Translations under genes and position numbers: made by a program
Notes under the pieces: generated by a model
The model's input: the letters and a program-made list of their open reading frames with translations, nothing else
What the model was told of the DNA's origin: nothing
Databases searched by the model: none
Assembly (NCBI RefSeq): GCF_015291665.1
Contig: NZ_CP030048.1
Location: 6,917,501-6,981,500 of the forward strand
Length of the DNA: 64,000 bases
Reading direction: 5' to 3'
Origin: Bradyrhizobium sp. CCBAU 53338
GTDB taxonomy: Bacteria > Pseudomonadota > Alphaproteobacteria > Rhizobiales > Xanthobacteraceae
Shown: positions 50,056 to 58,158 of the stretch, piece by piece
How the letters are laid out: every line of letters begins with the position of its first letter
Position numbering within the stretch: the stretch's first letter is position 1

Positions 50056-50081
50056 TCCCTCCCCCCTTGTGGGGGAGGGAG
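50056..50081. repeat. short palindromic repeat
   Basis: TCCCTCCCCCC-TTG-TGGGGGAGGGA type inverted repeat just after the LysR stop. The arm is the same as that of the element inside the Lhr helicase gene at 53170-53281. It may serve as a terminator for both convergent genes. Confidence 0.6.
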
Positions 50082-50111: not shown

Positions 50112-50783
50112 TTAGTAACACCTTGACGCGGCAATCGCATGCACGCGGCGGTCGCCGAGCAGATGCGCGACAAAGCCGTTCTTCGGAAAAATCCTTGCAA
50201 ACGCAGCGTCGCGGATGCTGAGGCCGCCGGCATAGGCACCGAAGGCCGGCATCACGGCGCGCAGGCCGTCGCTGGCAAAACAGCGCCGCTCCATCGAACG
50301 ACCGCGCGCGGAGACGCGGGCCTTCGGATGAAGATGGCCGGCGATCTCGCCCTGCGCGCCTGATGGCTCGTGGCGGAAGGTGATCGGGCCGATCGAGACC
50401 TCGTCCGCAATGGTGCCGCCAAGATCGCGCGGCAGCATGGGATCATGATTGCCCGAGATCCAGATCCAGTCGCGGCCGGTCTGCAGCGCGGCGACGGCAT
50501 CGCGGTCGTCCGCCGAGAGGCGCTCATGCGCGGTGCGATCGTGGAAACTGTCGCCGAGTGCGATGACGGTGCGCGGATCATGGCGGGAGGTGACAGCAGC
50601 GAGCCGGCTCAGCGTCGCCAGCGTGTCATAGGGCGGCAGCAGCACCCCGCGCGTGGCGAAGCTGGAACCCTTTTCGAGATGCAGGTCGGAAACGACGAGC
50701 AGACGCTGCTCTTCCCAGAACAGCGCGCCGGAGAGATCGGCCGCGAAGGTCACATCGCTGATCGTGACCCTGGAAACGCGCAT
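50112..50783 (-). CDS. pdeM: ligase-associated DNA damage response phosphoesterase PdeM
   Basis: 223 residues from MRVSRVTISD at 50783; a Met at 50822 is possible but lies only 10 bases after the helicase stop. It is a calcineurin-like metallophosphoesterase: VVSDLHLEKGSSFA (Asp33, His35), TVIALGDSFHD, WIWISGNHDP and GEIAGHLHPKARV are the metal motifs. The family (TIGR04123 type) is the endonuclease member of the ligase-associated repair set; the Pseudomonas putida homologue was shown to be a DNA endonuclease. It follows the helicase on the same strand by 48 bases. Confidence 0.93.
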   Translation of the reverse strand: MRVSRVTISDVTFAADLSGALFWEEQRLLVVSDLHLEKGSSFATRGVLLPPYDTLATLSRLAAVTSRHDPRTVIALGDSFHDRTAHERLSADDRDAVAALQTGRDWIWISGNHDPMLPRDLGGTIADEVSIGPITFRHEPSGAQGEIAGHLHPKARVSARGRSMERRCFASDGLRAVMPAFGAYAGGLSIRDAAFARIFPKNGFVAHLLGDRRVHAIAASRCY

Positions 50784-50831
50784 GTCTTCAACATCCTCCG
50801 AAACCAGCGCGCCCAACGTCAAGACCTGCTC

Positions 50832-53501
50832 TTATCCCATCGCTTCCTTGACCAGCTCGTCGGCAGCTTCCGCCAACAGCTCGTCTGCAGCTTCGCCATA
50901 AACTGACTCGCGGCCGATTTCCAGCATCACGGGGACGGCGAGCGGGGAGACGTGGTCGAGTTCCCGATGGGTGATGCGGCCCTGGATGCGCCCTAGCATG
51001 CCGCCGAGGCGGCGCAGATCGAGCAGGCCGGTGGCGGCATCGGCGCGCGCCGCGCGCAACAGCACGTGATCGGCCTGGTGTTTTCGCAAGACGTCATAGA
51101 CGAGATCGGTCGAGAACAGCACCTGGCGACGGCTCTTGTCCTCGCTGGTGAAGCGGCGCTCGATCAGGCCTGAGATCAACGCGCAATTGCGGAAGGTGCG
51201 CTTCATCAACGCTGACTCGGCGAGCCAGGCTTCGAGATCGTCGCCCAGCATGTCCGGGTTGAACAGCGCATCGAGGTCGAGTTGTCCGTTACGGATCATG
51301 AAGGAGGCATCGCCGAGCCCCCAGATCGCCACCGCATATTCATTGGCAACGAAGCCGAGCGGCCGGGCGCGGGCGCGCTCGAGCCGCCGCGTCAGCAGCA
51401 TGCCGAGCGTCTGATGCGCGAGCCGGCCTTCGAAGGGATAGCAGATCAGGTAATGCTTGTTGCCGCGCGGAAAAGTCTCGACCAGCAGTTCGCGAACGCC
51501 GGGCACGCGGCTGACGTCCTTCTGCAATGACAGCCAGTCGCGAACCTGTTCGGGCAGGCCATTCCAGGCGCGCCTGTCATCAAGGATACGGCGCACGCGC
51601 TCGGCGAGATAAGTCGAGAGCGGAAACTTGCCGCCCATATAGGACGGCACCTTCGGGTCCTTGTCGTTGGCGCGGGATACGTAGACCTGGTCTTCTGCCA
51701 AAGCCTCGTAGCGCACGACCTCGCCACCAAAGACAAAAGTATCGCCGGCGGTCAGGCCCTCAATAAAGTATTCCTCGATCTCGCCGAGCACGCGGCCGCC
51801 GCGCGCGATGGCGCCGGTCGAGCCGGTGCCCGTAGAGCGTCCCCGCACCAGCCGCACCTTCAGCATCGGCTCCTCGACGATGGTGCCGACGTTGAGGCGA
51901 TAGCTCTGCCGCACCTTCGGATTGGCGACGCGCCAGCGGCCCTGCTTGTCCTGCTTGATGCGGGCGAAGCGCTCGTAGGTTTTCAGCGCGTAGCCGCCGG
52001 TGGCGACGAAATCGACGACGTCGTCGAAATCTCCGCGCGCAAGTCCGGCGTAAGGCGCGGCCGTGCGGACCTCTTCAAAGAGATCGTCGCTCAAAAACGG
52101 TTCGCCGCAGGCGCAGCCGAGCACGTGCTGGGCCAGCACGTCGAGCGCGCCGGTACGCAAGGGCGGCGTGTCCTGCGCATTCTCGGCGATGGCATCGATC
52201 GCGGCGCGACATTCCAGCACCTCGAAGCGGTTGGCGGGCACCAGCACGGCGCGCGAGGCTTCGTCGAGGCGATGATTGGCGCGGCCGATGCGCTGCATCA
52301 GGCGCGATGAGCCCTTGGGTGCGCCGATATTGACGACGAGATCGACGTCGCCCCAGTCGATGCCGAGGTCGAGCGAGGAGGTGCAGACCACACCGCGCAG
52401 TCTGCCCGCCGACATCGCTTCCTCGACCTTGCGCCGTTGCGCCACGTCGAGCGAGCCGTGATGCAGCGCAATCGCAAGGCCGTCGTCGTTGATGCGCCAG
52501 AGATCCTGGAACAGCATCTCGGCCTGGCTGCGGGTGTTGACGAAAACGAGCGTGGTCTTGTTCTGCTTGATCAGCTCATAGACTTCAGCGAGCGCGTGGC
52601 GCGCGCCGTGGCCGGCCCAGGGCAGCCGCTCGCGCGTATCCAGCATCTCGACCAAAGGCGGCGCAGCGCCCCCGGCGACGACGATGTCGGCCGCGGATTC
52701 CTTTCCGCCGGGCTGCGGCACCAGGAAACGCGCGAGCTGATCCGGCTCGGCGACGGTCGCCGACAGGCCGATCGCGCGCATCTGCGGCGCCAACCGCCAC
52801 AGCCGCGCGAGGCCGAGCGAGAGCAGATCGCCGCGCTTGGACGTCACCAGCGCATGCAGCTCGTCGAGCACGATGCGCTCGAGCGAGGAGAACAGAAACG
52901 GCGCGTCATCGGAGGAGAGCAGCAGCGCGAGCTGCTCCGGCGTGGTCAGCAGGATATCGGGCGGATAGCGCCGCTGGCGCTGGCGCCGCGACACCGGCGT
53001 GTCGCCGGTGCGGGTCTCGACCTTGATCGGCAGGCTCATCTCGGCGATCGGCCGTTCCAGATTGCGCGCGATGTCGACGGCGAGCGCCTTCAGCGGCGAG
53101 ATGTAGAGCGTGTGCAGGCCGGCGCTGCGCTGAACGCTGCGGCCGGTGGAGACGAGCTTGCTGCTGTTACCTCCCCCCTTGTGGGGGAGGTCGGCAGCCG
53201 CAGGCTGCCGGGAGGCGGGTAGCCCCACGAGCGGTGTCTGCGGCCACCCCCCTCCCCGCCCCTCCCCCACAAGGGGGGAGGGAGAAGAAGACAGCTCCAC
53301 CAATGTCGGCAGAAACCCCGCCAGCGTCTTGCCGGCGCCGGTCGGCGCGATCAGCAACGCCGACCGATCCTCGCGCGCCTTCTGCAGCAGCGCGAGCTGA
53401 TGCTCGCGCGGCGACCAGCCGCGCCCCGCGAACCATTGCTGGAAGCGGTCGGACAGCAGTGCGGCCGGCTCGGCCGGGATTTTGAGGATGCGGGGCGGCA
53501 C
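50832..53501 (-). CDS. ligase-associated DEXH-box DNA helicase (Lhr-type), with in-frame repeat insert
   Basis: 889 residues of the Lhr-core class. Walker A is APTGAGKT (52-59); motif II DELH lies in IVLDELHALVTSKRGDL; motif VI is MQRIGRANHR. The Lhr winged-helix and C-terminal domains follow. Residues 71-114 (SSSPSPLVGEG... to ...PHKGGGNSS) are encoded by a palindromic repeat at about 53162-53290, placed between Walker A and motif Ia (YISPLKALAVD); family members lack it. The reading frame is preserved and there is no stop. The protein unwinds DNA with ATP in the ligase-associated repair set. Whether the extra 42 residues harm activity cannot be judged. Confidence 0.93.
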   Translation of the reverse strand: MPPRILKIPAEPAALLSDRFQQWFAGRGWSPREHQLALLQKAREDRSALLIAPTGAGKTLAGFLPTLVELSSSPSPLVGEGRGGGWPQTPLVGLPASRQPAAADLPHKGGGNSSKLVSTGRSVQRSAGLHTLYISPLKALAVDIARNLERPIAEMSLPIKVETRTGDTPVSRRQRQRRYPPDILLTTPEQLALLLSSDDAPFLFSSLERIVLDELHALVTSKRGDLLSLGLARLWRLAPQMRAIGLSATVAEPDQLARFLVPQPGGKESAADIVVAGGAAPPLVEMLDTRERLPWAGHGARHALAEVYELIKQNKTTLVFVNTRSQAEMLFQDLWRINDDGLAIALHHGSLDVAQRRKVEEAMSAGRLRGVVCTSSLDLGIDWGDVDLVVNIGAPKGSSRLMQRIGRANHRLDEASRAVLVPANRFEVLECRAAIDAIAENAQDTPPLRTGALDVLAQHVLGCACGEPFLSDDLFEEVRTAAPYAGLARGDFDDVVDFVATGGYALKTYERFARIKQDKQGRWRVANPKVRQSYRLNVGTIVEEPMLKVRLVRGRSTGTGSTGAIARGGRVLGEIEEYFIEGLTAGDTFVFGGEVVRYEALAEDQVYVSRANDKDPKVPSYMGGKFPLSTYLAERVRRILDDRRAWNGLPEQVRDWLSLQKDVSRVPGVRELLVETFPRGNKHYLICYPFEGRLAHQTLGMLLTRRLERARARPLGFVANEYAVAIWGLGDASFMIRNGQLDLDALFNPDMLGDDLEAWLAESALMKRTFRNCALISGLIERRFTSEDKSRRQVLFSTDLVYDVLRKHQADHVLLRAARADAATGLLDLRRLGGMLGRIQGRITHRELDHVSPLAVPVMLEIGRESVYGEAADELLAEAADELVKEAMG
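53162..53290. repeat. palindromic element inserted in-frame in the helicase gene
   Basis: Two 21-base perfect inverted arms, CCTCCCCCC-TTG-TGGGGGAGG at 53170-53190 and its reverse complement at 53261-53281, enclose a third hairpin (CGGCAG...CTGCCG near 53192-53210) and GC-rich filler. The total is about 126 bases, a multiple of three. The same arm occurs at 50057-50080. The outer limits are estimated from where helicase homology should resume. Confidence 0.8.
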
Positions 53502-53599: not shown

Positions 53600-53637
53600 C
53601 TCATCCGGCGCTTCGCGCCACCTTCTCCCACAAGGGG
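53600..53637. repeat. palindromic intergenic repeat, left half split by IS5
   Basis: CTCATCCGGCGCTTCGCGCC followed by ACCTTCTCCCACAAGGGG is the left part of a second palindromic repeat type. The right part (ACAAGGGGAGAAGG) resumes at 54758 after the IS5-family element, so the repeat was the insertion target. Confidence 0.75.
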
Positions 53638-54760
53638 CCTGTTGCGCTACTGCCTTTTGATGCGGGAGACGTAAGGAGAGAGGGCGTTGTCGGCCCCGAT
53701 TGTCGGGCCGAAGCTGTATTTTGCGCCCTTGATGGGCGTCAGGCGGCGATCGTGGCCCACCGCCTCATATTGAACGCGATGGAGGCAAGCAGGACTTGTC
53801 CGCGTGCCTTGGCGAGACCGACGTATCGGATGCAGGTGAGCCGCATCCGACGTTTGAGGGTGGCAAAGGTTGTCTCCACCGTTGCCCGTCGTCGTGCGAT
53901 GAGACGGTTGTAGCGTTTGAGCCTCGGCGGCAGTTCCGGGTGATGCCTGTTGGGACGGCGGGCGATGCGGGGCTTCTTGCCTTCCGCTTTCAGCCGCGCC
54001 CGCCGGGCGTGGGTGTCGTAGGCCGCATCGGCCCATACCACGGCTTCGTCGCCGCGGATCAGTTCGTCGGCTGGCGTTGTATCGTTGATATTGGCGGGCG
54101 TGGTCAGGACTGAGCGGATCAGACCGGATCCCTCGTCGACACCCATGTGAGCCTTGTAGCCGAAGGTCGAACCACCCTTGCCCTGTCGCTTGGTGAACCG
54201 GGCGTCTGGGTCGTTTGATGGACGATCCTCCTTGGGAGGAGCTGAGACGGCCTGGATCAGGGTCGCGTCGAGCATCGTGCCGCGCTTGAGGATGACACCA
54301 GCATTCTCAAGCTGGCGGTCCAGCTCGCCAAACAACTTCTCCAGCAGGCCTTGTTCGATGAGTTGATTCCGGAAACGGTTCAGAACCGTATGGTCGGGCG
54401 TCGCATCCTCGAGGCTCAGACCAACGAAGCGCTTGAACGACAGCCGGTCGCTCAGCGCTTCCTCAAGCTCGCGGTCCGAAAGACCATAGAGCGACTGCAA
54501 CAGCAGCGCCCGAAACAGCACCAACACCGCGTACCCCGGCTGACCGGGTCCCTTCTCGTCCCGCAAATGGCCGATCAGCTTCTCGAACCGGTACCACTTG
54601 ACCAGGCCGGCCAGCCGATCCAGCGACGCATTGGCGCCGGCTCCCTTCGGCATCAGCGCATCTACAAAGCTCGGCTGTCCCGTCTGCTTCACCGCCATCG
54701 TCATTCCCCCAAAAGGCTCAACCGCAGGGAATCACAACTGGCGAATTACGCAACAGGCCC
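53635..54760 (-). mobile_element. IS5-family insertion sequence
   Basis: About 1.13 kb with one intact transposase. The terminal inverted repeats are GGGCCTGTTGCG (53635-53646) and its complement (54749-54760). The flanks share the direct repeat CCCACAAGGGG (53627-53637 and 54758-54768). Because the IS tips begin with the same bases as the flank, the true duplication is between 5 and 11 bases. The element cuts a palindromic repeat between the Lhr helicase and the solute-binding protein gene. Confidence 0.85.
53739..54704 (-). CDS. IS5-family transposase
   Basis: 321 residues, DDE type. The N-terminal region contains the helix-turn-helix-like YRFEKLIGHLRDEK and the DUF772 block (LYGLSDRELEEALSDRLSFKRFVGL). 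Catalytic residues are the Asp in LDATLIQAV, the Asp in VVWADAAYDT and the Glu in RATVETTFATLKRRM. The gene is complete and lies between matching ends, so the element may be mobile. Confidence 0.92.
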   Translation of the reverse strand: MTMAVKQTGQPSFVDALMPKGAGANASLDRLAGLVKWYRFEKLIGHLRDEKGPGQPGYAVLVLFRALLLQSLYGLSDRELEEALSDRLSFKRFVGLSLEDATPDHTVLNRFRNQLIEQGLLEKLFGELDRQLENAGVILKRGTMLDATLIQAVSAPPKEDRPSNDPDARFTKRQGKGGSTFGYKAHMGVDEGSGLIRSVLTTPANINDTTPADELIRGDEAVVWADAAYDTHARRARLKAEGKKPRIARRPNRHHPELPPRLKRYNRLIARRRATVETTFATLKRRMRLTCIRYVGLAKARGQVLLASIAFNMRRWATIAA

Positions 54761-54784
54761 ACAAGGGGAGAAGGAAGAAAACAC

Positions 54785-56129: not shown

Positions 56130-57056
56130 TCAAGTTTTCTCGGCAACGACGACGAGGCCGCGCACCGGCTCGTTGTTCTCGTTGCGTGGCGAGGCGGGCT
56201 CCAGCGTGAGAAGCTTCAGTCCGGCGTGCGCGATCGCGCCGCGCACATATTCCGCGGAATGGGCATAGCGCAGGCCTTCGCCGAGCACGATGCCATCGCC
56301 CGCATGCGTCTCAAGCGTGAAGGCGAGCGTGCCGCCAGTCGCAAGCACGCGCTTCGTCTCAGTGAGCACCGGCGCGAGATCGGAGAGATAGACGAAAGCA
56401 TCCGCGGCGACGACGAGGTTTGCGCTGGCGTCCACCTTGCCGCGCAGGCCCTCGATCATGTCGGCGACTTCGAGCTCGGCGTAAAGCCCGGTCGCGCGCG
56501 CCTCCTTGATCATGCCTGACGACAGGTCGATGCCGATGAAATGATCGACCTGCTTGGCGAAGGCGGCGGCGGCAAGCCCCGTGCCGCAGCCGAGATCGAT
56601 GGTGCGCTTGAAGAAGGCCGGCTTCTTGGCGGCGACGCGCGCGGCCAGCACGGCCTTGAAGATCAGCGCGGGGGCGCGATAGCCGAGGTCGTTGATCAGC
56701 GCGTGCTCGAAGCGCGGCGCATATTGGTCGAACAGCGCCTGCACATAGGCCTTGGGCATCTCCGCCATCTGCGCGTCGCCAAGCCGCATCAGATGCAGGC
56801 CGGCGCCGTGCTGATCCTCAGGGTCGGAGTCGCGCGCCTTGCGGAATGCCGCGATGGCCTTGTCGCGCTCGCCGAGCTGCTGGCGGATTTCGCCGAGCGT
56901 GAACCAGGCCGAGGTGAAGTTCGGCGCCAGCTCGATCGCCTGCTCGATCAGGTCGGCGGCGGCGGGCAGGTCGCCCTTGAGCTGGAGGTCGCGCGCGAAC
57001 TCGAAACGGCGGTCGGCCATGAGATCGCCGGAGGTCAGGAACAGGCGGAGCGGCAT
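56130..57056 (-). CDS. TPR-containing SAM-dependent methyltransferase
   Basis: 308 residues. The first 80 hold about two TPR-like helical repeats (DLPAAADLIEQAIELAPNF, AWFTLGEIRQQLGERDKA), and the rest is a class I methyltransferase with the SAM loop IDLGCGTGLAAAAF and FIGIDLSSGMIKEA. The substrate is unknown; similar fusions act on proteins. The start MPLRLFLTSGDL at 57056 is kept because SGDL-ADRR is shared within the family; MADRRFEF at 57020 is the alternative. It is divergent from the exonuclease, 64 bases apart. Confidence 0.82.
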   Translation of the reverse strand: MPLRLFLTSGDLMADRRFEFARDLQLKGDLPAAADLIEQAIELAPNFTSAWFTLGEIRQQLGERDKAIAAFRKARDSDPEDQHGAGLHLMRLGDAQMAEMPKAYVQALFDQYAPRFEHALINDLGYRAPALIFKAVLAARVAAKKPAFFKRTIDLGCGTGLAAAAFAKQVDHFIGIDLSSGMIKEARATGLYAELEVADMIEGLRGKVDASANLVVAADAFVYLSDLAPVLTETKRVLATGGTLAFTLETHAGDGIVLGEGLRYAHSAEYVRGAIAHAGLKLLTLEPASPRNENNEPVRGLVVVAEKT

Positions 57057-57120
57057 TGGGAACCAGGAAGCGCAGCGGGTGATGACTCGAAGACGCGGTG
57101 GAGCGACCTATATACCAATC

Positions 57121-58158
57121 ATGCGCCCGCAAGACATCCTGCTGCCAACTGCTGACGGCCTGTGCTGCAAGCCCGGCGGCTTCCATATCGACCCCGTCCG
57201 CCCGGTGGAGCGAGCCCTGATCACCCACGGCCATTCCGACCACGCCCGCGCCGGCCATGGCGCGGTGCTGGCGACGCAGGAAACGCTCGACATGATGCGG
57301 CTGCGCTATGGCGAGAATTTTGCCGGATCGACGCAGGCGATCAGCTACGGCGAGGACATCAGGCTCGGCGACGTCCGCGTCAAATTCCACCCGGCCGGCC
57401 ATGTGCTGGGCTCGGCACAGATCGCGGTGACCTGCAAGGACACCTGCATCGTCGCCTCCGGCGACTACAAGGATGCGCCCGACCCGACCTGCGCACCGTT
57501 CGAGCTCGTCCCCTGCGACGTCTTCATCACCGAGGCCACGTTCGGCCTGCCGGTGTTTCGCCATGGCGATGCGGCCGACGAGGTGAAGAAGCTGCTCGCC
57601 TCGGTCGCATTGTTTCCCGAGCGCGCGCATCTCGTCGGCGCCTATTCGCTCGGCAAGGCGCAGCGCGTGATCGCGCTGCTGCGCAAGGCCGGCTATGACG
57701 CGCCGATCCATCTGCATGGCGCGATGGAATCGATCACGCATTACTACCAGAGCCGCGGCATCGACCTCGGCGAGCTCAGGCCGGCGACGGGCGTGAAGAA
57801 GGCTGCGCTCGCCGGCACCATCACGCTGGCGCCGCCCTCGGCGACATCAGACGTCTGGACGCGTCGGTTTCCCGATCCCGTCACCGCATTCGCGTCAGGG
57901 TGGATGCGCGTGCGCGCCCGCGCGCGGCAGCGCGGGATCGAACTGCCGCTGGTGATCTCCGACCACGCCGATTGGGACGGCCTCACCGCGACGATCGCCG
58001 CGACCGGCGCCGGCGAGATCTGGGTCACCCACGGCCAGGAAGACGCGCTGGTGCATTGGTGCAGGTCGCGCGGCCTGCGGGCGCAGCCGCTCGATCTCGT
58101 CGGCTATGGCGAGGAAGAGGAAGGCGAGCCGCCGCGCGCCAGAGAGGCCGAGGCATGA
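57121..58158 (+). CDS. ligase-associated DNA exonuclease (MBL fold)
   Basis: 345 residues from MRPQDILLPT at 57121. It is a beta-CASP/MBL nuclease: ALITHGHSDHARAGH (metal motif at 35-41), FHPAGHVLGSAQIAV, ASGDYKDAPDP, and the late HADWDGL metal residue. The family (TIGR04122 type) is the exonuclease of the ligase-associated repair set. The stop overlaps the ligase start by 4 bases, so the two proteins are made together. Confidence 0.94.
   Translation: MRPQDILLPTADGLCCKPGGFHIDPVRPVERALITHGHSDHARAGHGAVLATQETLDMMRLRYGENFAGSTQAISYGEDIRLGDVRVKFHPAGHVLGSAQIAVTCKDTCIVASGDYKDAPDPTCAPFELVPCDVFITEATFGLPVFRHGDAADEVKKLLASVALFPERAHLVGAYSLGKAQRVIALLRKAGYDAPIHLHGAMESITHYYQSRGIDLGELRPATGVKKAALAGTITLAPPSATSDVWTRRFPDPVTAFASGWMRVRARARQRGIELPLVISDHADWDGLTATIAATGAGEIWVTHGQEDALVHWCRSRGLRAQPLDLVGYGEEEEGEPPRAREAEA

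Follow-up and report, generated by a model that had tools for sequence, protein, structure and literature searches.

The locus described here raises the question of how a palindromic DNA element came to lie in frame within a DNA helicase gene, and which enzyme could have brought it there. The gene belongs to Bradyrhizobium sp. CCBAU 53338 and occupies positions 50832..53501 (minus strand) of the window, which is the whole stretch of 64,000 nucleotides that was analysed (contig NZ_CP030048.1, 6,917,501 to 6,981,500). It encodes a ligase-associated DNA damage response DEXH (Lhr-type) helicase of 889 amino acids (TIGR04121, 1104.9 bits against a cut-off of 850) with the Pfam domains DEAD, Helicase_C, WH_Lhr and DEAD_assoc, and its closest relative among the named ones, at 99%, is a protein named for Bradyrhizobium arachidis. 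A PdeM-type phosphoesterase gene adjoins it (50112..50822, minus strand; TIGR04123, 227.1 bits against a cut-off of 150), and a ligase-associated exonuclease forms residues 101-426 of a nearby open reading frame at 56839-58158. A first-pass annotation of the window had described the helicase frame as uninterrupted despite the palindrome, and the open reading frame indeed holds no internal stop.

Anatomy and copies of the palindromic insert

The entire element spans 53166..53283, in frame, and corresponds to residues ~73-112 of the helicase. The perfect inverted arms of 21 nucleotides noted in the first-pass annotation are present at 53170-53190 and 53261-53281, while the bounds it gave, residues 71-114, are slightly too wide. 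Read from the sequence, the outer hairpin HP1 has its left arm at 53169..53191 and its inverted copy, the right arm, at 53260..53282, with a small hairpin, HP2, at 53192..53210. In the predicted RNA fold, the left half of an inner stem (53210..53224) pairs with the right half (53242..53256), and the folds predicted for the two strands of the element reach -91.7 and -101 kcal/mol. As had been noted, the place of the insert is between Walker A and motif Ia; the accompanying description of an essential-motif region is apt only for this position, with neither motif itself touched. The ends of the element are GTTACCTCC and GGAGGGA, and its sole GTAG falls in the inner stem, at 53219-53222. An identity with the GTAG/CGTC REPs was rejected, as the tag is absent from the element ends. 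Within the 64-kb window, only two other inverted 16-mers occur within 200 nucleotides of each other, both of them self-overlapping palindromes. Given this scarcity and the recurring copies in the genome, the palindrome in the helicase is confirmed as going beyond chance.

Two further copies lie in the window. The arm noted earlier at 50057 is a solitary, intergenic HP1 (50057..50079), with 24 nucleotides complementary to 53260-53283 without mismatch. The other copy, missed by the first-pass annotation, is one-armed and split by an insertion sequence, with the small hairpin and half of HP1 at 53600..53635 and the remaining half of HP1 at 54760..54775. The intruder is an IS5-family element of 1124 bp (53636..54759, minus strand) in the HP1 loop, flanked by a 7-bp duplication, CACAAGG; its transposase is encoded at 53739-54704 (NF033581, 278 bits against 140). 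All eight genome matches to the end of this IS element (53636-54759 and L490-L497) lie in HP1-type hairpin loops with a 7-bp duplication. In its insertion into hairpin loops, the element resembles the type-1 REP-targeting insertion sequences, as far as these are described in the accessible part of the source (PMC1525189).

Across the genome, 37 matches to the palindromic element at E<=0.01 were found among 40 scored of 59 candidates. The HP1 core recurs 60 times in the 8.28-Mb genome (18 exact and 42 one-mismatch matches), in comparison to 27 matches for a reversed control pattern. All 18 exact cores are confined to the outer ~1.1 Mb at either end of contig C1, with none in the middle 5.4 Mb, unlike the one-mismatch cores, which are spread throughout the contig. 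The reading-frame context of the copies was assessed in 54 rows, made up of 34 rows (in which one place is listed twice and some rows are both arms of one element) and 20 further loci. Fourteen frames at 11 places were read out (L004, L005, L055, L280, L283, L500, L504, L505, L513, L514 and L515), and the remaining rows were judged by the ends of their open reading frames alone. Among the frames read out, one conserved gene beyond the Lhr-type helicase carries a copy, the UvrD/PcrA-type helicase at L505; the search for further copies within coding genes that the first-pass annotation had suggested thus yielded a second in-frame case. To the eye, the other apparent in-gene copies looked like antisense frames, joined spacer frames, an extended N-terminus (L055) or insertion-sequence DNA (L283). 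The family-library test was applied to L505 only, and its best NCBIfam match is PcrA, below the cut-off of that model. The palindromic insert of L505 lies in frame at 1500-1649 of the locus (C1:1670040). By eye, the UvrD/PcrA linker measures 38-77 amino acids and holds at least three kinds of repeat-like peptide in 119 of the 120 close relatives listed, a survey in which no listed relative was clearly short and DNA was viewed for L505 alone.

Recurrent inserts in one helicase loop

The first-pass annotation took the palindrome to be an insertion analogous to the Rickettsia palindromic elements (RPEs), and it named the same residues in orthologues of many genera as the sign of ancestral sequence. 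The linker between Walker A and motif Ia was read in 139 of 141 genus loci; L069 and L117, in which the motifs were not found, were left out. Rows dropped from the analysis also include the duplicates L250 and L254 and a row lacking a recognizable motif (P0244). Because 48 of the 80 genus loci taken by place were chosen for matches starting near residue 1, a bias to long linkers, the linker shares given here are not population frequencies. Short linkers, defined as those with no more than 51 residues from one motif to the other, occur in 63/139 genus, 20/28 family and 15/15 order-level loci. When inserts are classed by peptide patterns, the helicase-insert element (class I) is found in nine of the 139 genus loci, including that of the window and a partly deleted copy assigned by hand (L099), and its residues are present in none of the 28 family and 15 order-level loci read. 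Since short linkers are common and the residues of the element occur in only these nine genus loci, the helicase element is an insertion and not ancestral sequence. The orthologue gaps therefore uphold the earlier proposal of an in-frame palindromic insertion, analogous to the Rickettsia elements, in an alphaproteobacterium.

Four other palindrome-type classes fill the same loop in 46 of the 139 genus loci (class II, 19; class IV, 13; class III, 11; class V, 3), bringing the five peptide classes together to 55, and a further 21 linkers are long and unclassified, some of them resembling deletion relics. An inverted repeat at z>=3 relative to shuffled sequence is present in the DNA of 43/55 classed, 2/21 unclassified and 1/63 short genus linkers; a strong inverted repeat is missing in 12/55 classed linkers. 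In the wider family, 8/28 loci are not short, and z>=3 is reached in five of these eight and in one of the 20 short ones, as well as in 0/15 order-level linkers. On a FastTree tree of 181 helicase proteins, built from motif Ia onward after L139 had been dropped for an internal stop, at least 19 changes between short and long linkers are required, as well as at least 31 changes of insert class in the same loop with unclassified rows left out; gain and loss are indistinguishable in these counts, and interspecies allele exchange may inflate them. Different inserts thus recur in one helicase loop. No clear target-site duplication was seen at the helicase insert, where the closest short alleles are strongly diverged, and no DUF559 gene was seen within the helicase linkers read.

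The interrupted helicase shows the marks of a maintained protein. In 12 pairs chosen by hand and compared from motif Ia onward, dN/dS ranges over 0.06-0.14 for the eight insert-bearing pairs and over 0.03-0.07 for the four short-linker pairs, so that the helicase is under purifying selection in both sets, a little weaker in the insert-bearing one. Among the match rows listed, the stops are one TAG (G235) and one TGA (G027). An AlphaFold2 model, of modest quality (49 alignment rows, mean pLDDT 64.6, pTM 0.54), places residues 74-125, with a pLDDT below 50, in between a helix (54-70) and a strand (130-133) that are both modelled with confidence. The first-pass annotation had left two outcomes side by side, a tolerated loop or a damaged protein. 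Open frames, the dN/dS of 0.06-0.14 and the low-confidence loop favour tolerance, and a pseudogene is disfavoured by the open frames and low dN/dS.

DUF559 nuclease genes within arms of the same type

DUF559 nuclease genes are framed by arms of the helicase-insert type. In the Bradyrhizobium genome studied, three of four DUF559 genes lie inside inverted arms built in the same way. The spacers concerned are pheS-pheT, dnaN-recF and trpA-trpB, with the neighbours named by Pfam families. The fourth gene is part of an open frame of 403 codons, with no arms visible in its unscored flanks by eye. The helicase element and the left-arm region of the DUF559 element at 148138 (L002/L061) match at 88% over 56 nucleotides, and HP1 is likewise followed by a hairpin placed like HP2 in the arms of several DUF559 loci, among them L063, L418, L420 and L435. 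Gene-less copies in the genome have the same arms as the DUF559 element, and like MITEs they share terminal inverted repeats with a gene-bearing element. By eye, the DUF559 frame of L061 (1501-1821, plus strand, onward; 156 open codons) seemingly continues into the right arm, a run-on that would yield an LPHKGGG tail resembling the helicase insert.

Arms were scored as the best inverted match between 300-nucleotide flanks, with a threshold of 20 that was set after an earlier version (46 random blocks, 95th percentile 12.4, maximum 36). Scores of at least 20 surround 27/32 genus DUF559 loci and 15/30 phylum loci (the 30 top-scoring, one of them from the same genus), in comparison to none of 30 ParE control loci (maximum 14.5), a control that is not matched for intergenic position because ParE genes sit in operons. 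In named records, arms were found at 49/80 DUF559 loci, or 48/79 without L422, which holds a masked run; 149 in-locus control blocks in these records reached at most 16.5. These 80 loci are not a random sample, as they are the best 80 of at least 542 relatives, and the passing rows include Candidatus Binatia, Chloroflexi and Desulfobacterales titles, all of them metagenome bins. The loci below the arm score number 5/32 in the genus, 15/30 in the phylum and 31/79 in the named records, and by a motif test a hairpin of the CCCTCTCCC type stands on both sides at only 38/80 named loci. DUF559 itself is present in 59/60 genus and 80/299 phylum genomes.

The pheS-pheT spacer offers a series of states at a single site. 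It was examined at 50 loci in 50 genomes, of which 36 could be delimited and 14 were left out. A DUF559-like motif, recognized by pattern, lies inside arms in 21/36 spacers, and the arms belong to two lineages, represented for example by L360, L365 and L374 and by L361, L367 and L368. The remaining spacers comprise one gene-less palindrome (L399), four one-arm relics (L393, L405, L407 and L408), two empty spacers (L394 and L397; 55 and 76 bp) and eight with other sequence. Comparison with the two empty spacers gave no clear target-site duplication. At L386, the start of the DUF559 gene stands inverted next to its arm, either through inversion between the arms or through an assembly fold-back, the latter being possible because the locus lies at a contig end.

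The DUF559 profile matches the 'Endonuclease-Like Protein' chain 3hrl at 7.7e-36 and, weakly, chain 3r3p, a 'Mobile intron protein' that is presumably I-Bth0305I, at 0.0014. The PADLOC homing endonuclease model matches L063 at E 0.00045, beside similarly weak matches to other models, and does not match L061. Six residues (E17, D46, E57, D59, H63 and D72) are invariant in 18/18 aligned DUF559 domains, and such conserved E, D, H and D residues are compatible with an active nuclease.

I-Bth0305I is described as an EDxHD homing endonuclease (PMC3943268). The DUF559 genes resemble it by the weak, distant sequence match and as putatively selfish nuclease genes; they differ in lying outside introns, between hairpin arms, and in having gene-less arm copies, and the extended DNA-binding region of I-Bth0305I lies outside the ~105-residue DUF559 domain compared, as far as the accessible part of that report describes it (PMC3943268). 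The Vsr-like VsrA of Caulobacter shares the DUF559 domain and belongs likewise to the PD-(D/E)XK superfamily, but it is interpreted, in the part of the report available, as an enzyme of mismatch repair linked to a methyltransferase, unlike the arm-framed DUF559 genes here, and the string 'palindrom' is absent from the main text of that paper (PMC12907096).

Possible origins of the inserts

In-frame palindromes are known from several systems. According to the accessible part of a published account, RPEs are ~150-bp palindromes found in frame in protein genes, with the host proteins kept open, and no nuclease partner or moving enzyme is named there (PMC10969869). The helicase insert shares with them an in-frame palindrome within a protein gene and an open host protein. 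RPEs enter many unrelated genes, 44 in R. conorii (PMC10969869); here there are two in-gene copies among 54 rows, both in helicases, with one loop hit across species. GTAG/CGTC REPs are described as inverted pairs around a RAYT/TIRYT tyrosine transposase gene, and also occur inside genes, many of them of DNA repair; in recB, X. campestris and X. oryzae carry different REPs 'about at the same site' (PMC3733652). They are thus alike in setting inverted palindromes around a gene and in having intragenic copies in repair genes, but the elements described here have no GTAG/CGTC end tag and frame a DUF559 nuclease gene rather than a tyrosine transposase gene. QMITE1 and QMITE2 of Coxiella are likewise MITE-like palindromes, some of them in frame, whose REP part is a target of insertion sequences, and Bradyrhizobium relatives of one Coxiella MITE have been reported; by its description in the part consulted, QMITE2 differs in having a GTAG REP and no DUF559 gene mentioned (PMC5896051). 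As in-frame palindromes have been reported in Xanthomonas (PMC3733652) and Coxiella (PMC5896051), their occurrence outside Rickettsiales is not new. What is new here is the enclosure of DUF559 nuclease genes by arms of the same type. In the parts of the open-access literature that were searched, neither the pairing of DUF559 with palindromes nor recurrence to such an extent in one loop was found.

On the strength of the invariant DUF559 residues and the weak EDxHD likeness, we propose a spread that is initiated by the nuclease and mediated by repair, with gene-less copies as MITE-like followers. The helicase insert is probably such a gene-less copy, belonging to a palindromic superfamily that in its complete form includes a DUF559 (Vsr/EDxHD-like) nuclease, and recurrently tolerated in a disordered loop. 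The complete members would consist of the nuclease gene between inverted, hairpin-bearing arms. The nuclease may nick or cut DNA, and repair of the break would copy into the site either the arms alone or the arms together with the gene, in a homing-like or transposition-like manner. Most copies would persist between genes, while in-frame arrivals may persist in the helicase because a Pro/Gly-rich peptide can be accommodated in the loop that joins Walker A to motif Ia; these inserts would then decay by in-frame deletion and diverge clade by clade. Both movement caused by DUF559 and this order of events are inferred. That repair helicases are hit may have to do with low expression and long loops. 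A wider statement, for which the chances appear even, is that the CCCTCTCCC...GGGAGAGGG type of palindrome, as present in Pseudomonadota and in some records bearing the names of other phyla, represents one mobile superfamily of hairpin arms and an EDxHD/Vsr-like DUF559 nuclease, with the gene-less copies as its MITEs and repair-helicase loops as recurrent landing sites.

Three other explanations were weighed. The palindromes could be ordinary REP or MITE repeats whose mobility depends on some unrelated enzyme, such as a RAYT-type tyrosine transposase, or on an insertion sequence, with DUF559 genes as passengers that gather at the same places between genes. Intergenic regions do accumulate palindromes and IS copies, one IS5-family element sits in HP1-type loops in 8/8 copies, and GTAG/CGTC REPs of Bradyrhizobium are known, as are tyrosine transposases in REP-bearing genomes, in the accessible part of the report (PMC3733652). 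This explanation is nevertheless rather unlikely, given the two-sided arms at 27/32 genus DUF559 loci and in distant groups versus 0/30 for ParE, the carriage of DUF559 by two distinct element lineages at pheS-pheT, and the position of the only GTAG at 53219-53222, away from ends that lack the tag. Alternatively, a single ancient basal insertion could have been re-coloured by gene conversion and often lost, with few independent arrivals in the helicase. The classes do track clades to a degree, L099, L119, L147 and L156 appear to be in-frame deletion relics, and the change counts do not tell gain from loss; on the other hand, the inserts vary in length, class and linker offset, other genera of the family have their own types (L258, L268 and L279) beside insert-free relatives, and the sequence common to the arms is probably short for conversion. 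A single insertion is thus unlikely, with some weight left to it.

Finally, the insert might be selected, its hairpins or peptide regulating mRNA or protein in repair-helicase genes. Both in-gene copies found in the genome are indeed in repair helicases (Lhr-type and UvrD/PcrA), and many repair genes are among the REP-carrying reading frames (PMC3733652). Against such a role, which is very unlikely, the content, length and presence of the insert vary freely, 63/139 relatives were read without a long insert, short-linker pairs are likewise under purifying selection, and the loop is of low model confidence.

If the superfamily reading is true, it would put a name to a candidate enzyme behind the invasion of protein genes by palindromes. 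With palindromes recurrently paired with a single nuclease family, the question of the moving enzyme becomes testable in harmless soil bacteria. Furthermore, the pairing may account for some small DUF559 genes, as well as for some of the Pro/Gly-rich stretches that alphaproteobacterial proteins contain. The helicase loop, colonised again and again, amounts to a natural experiment on how a protein accepts new sequence.
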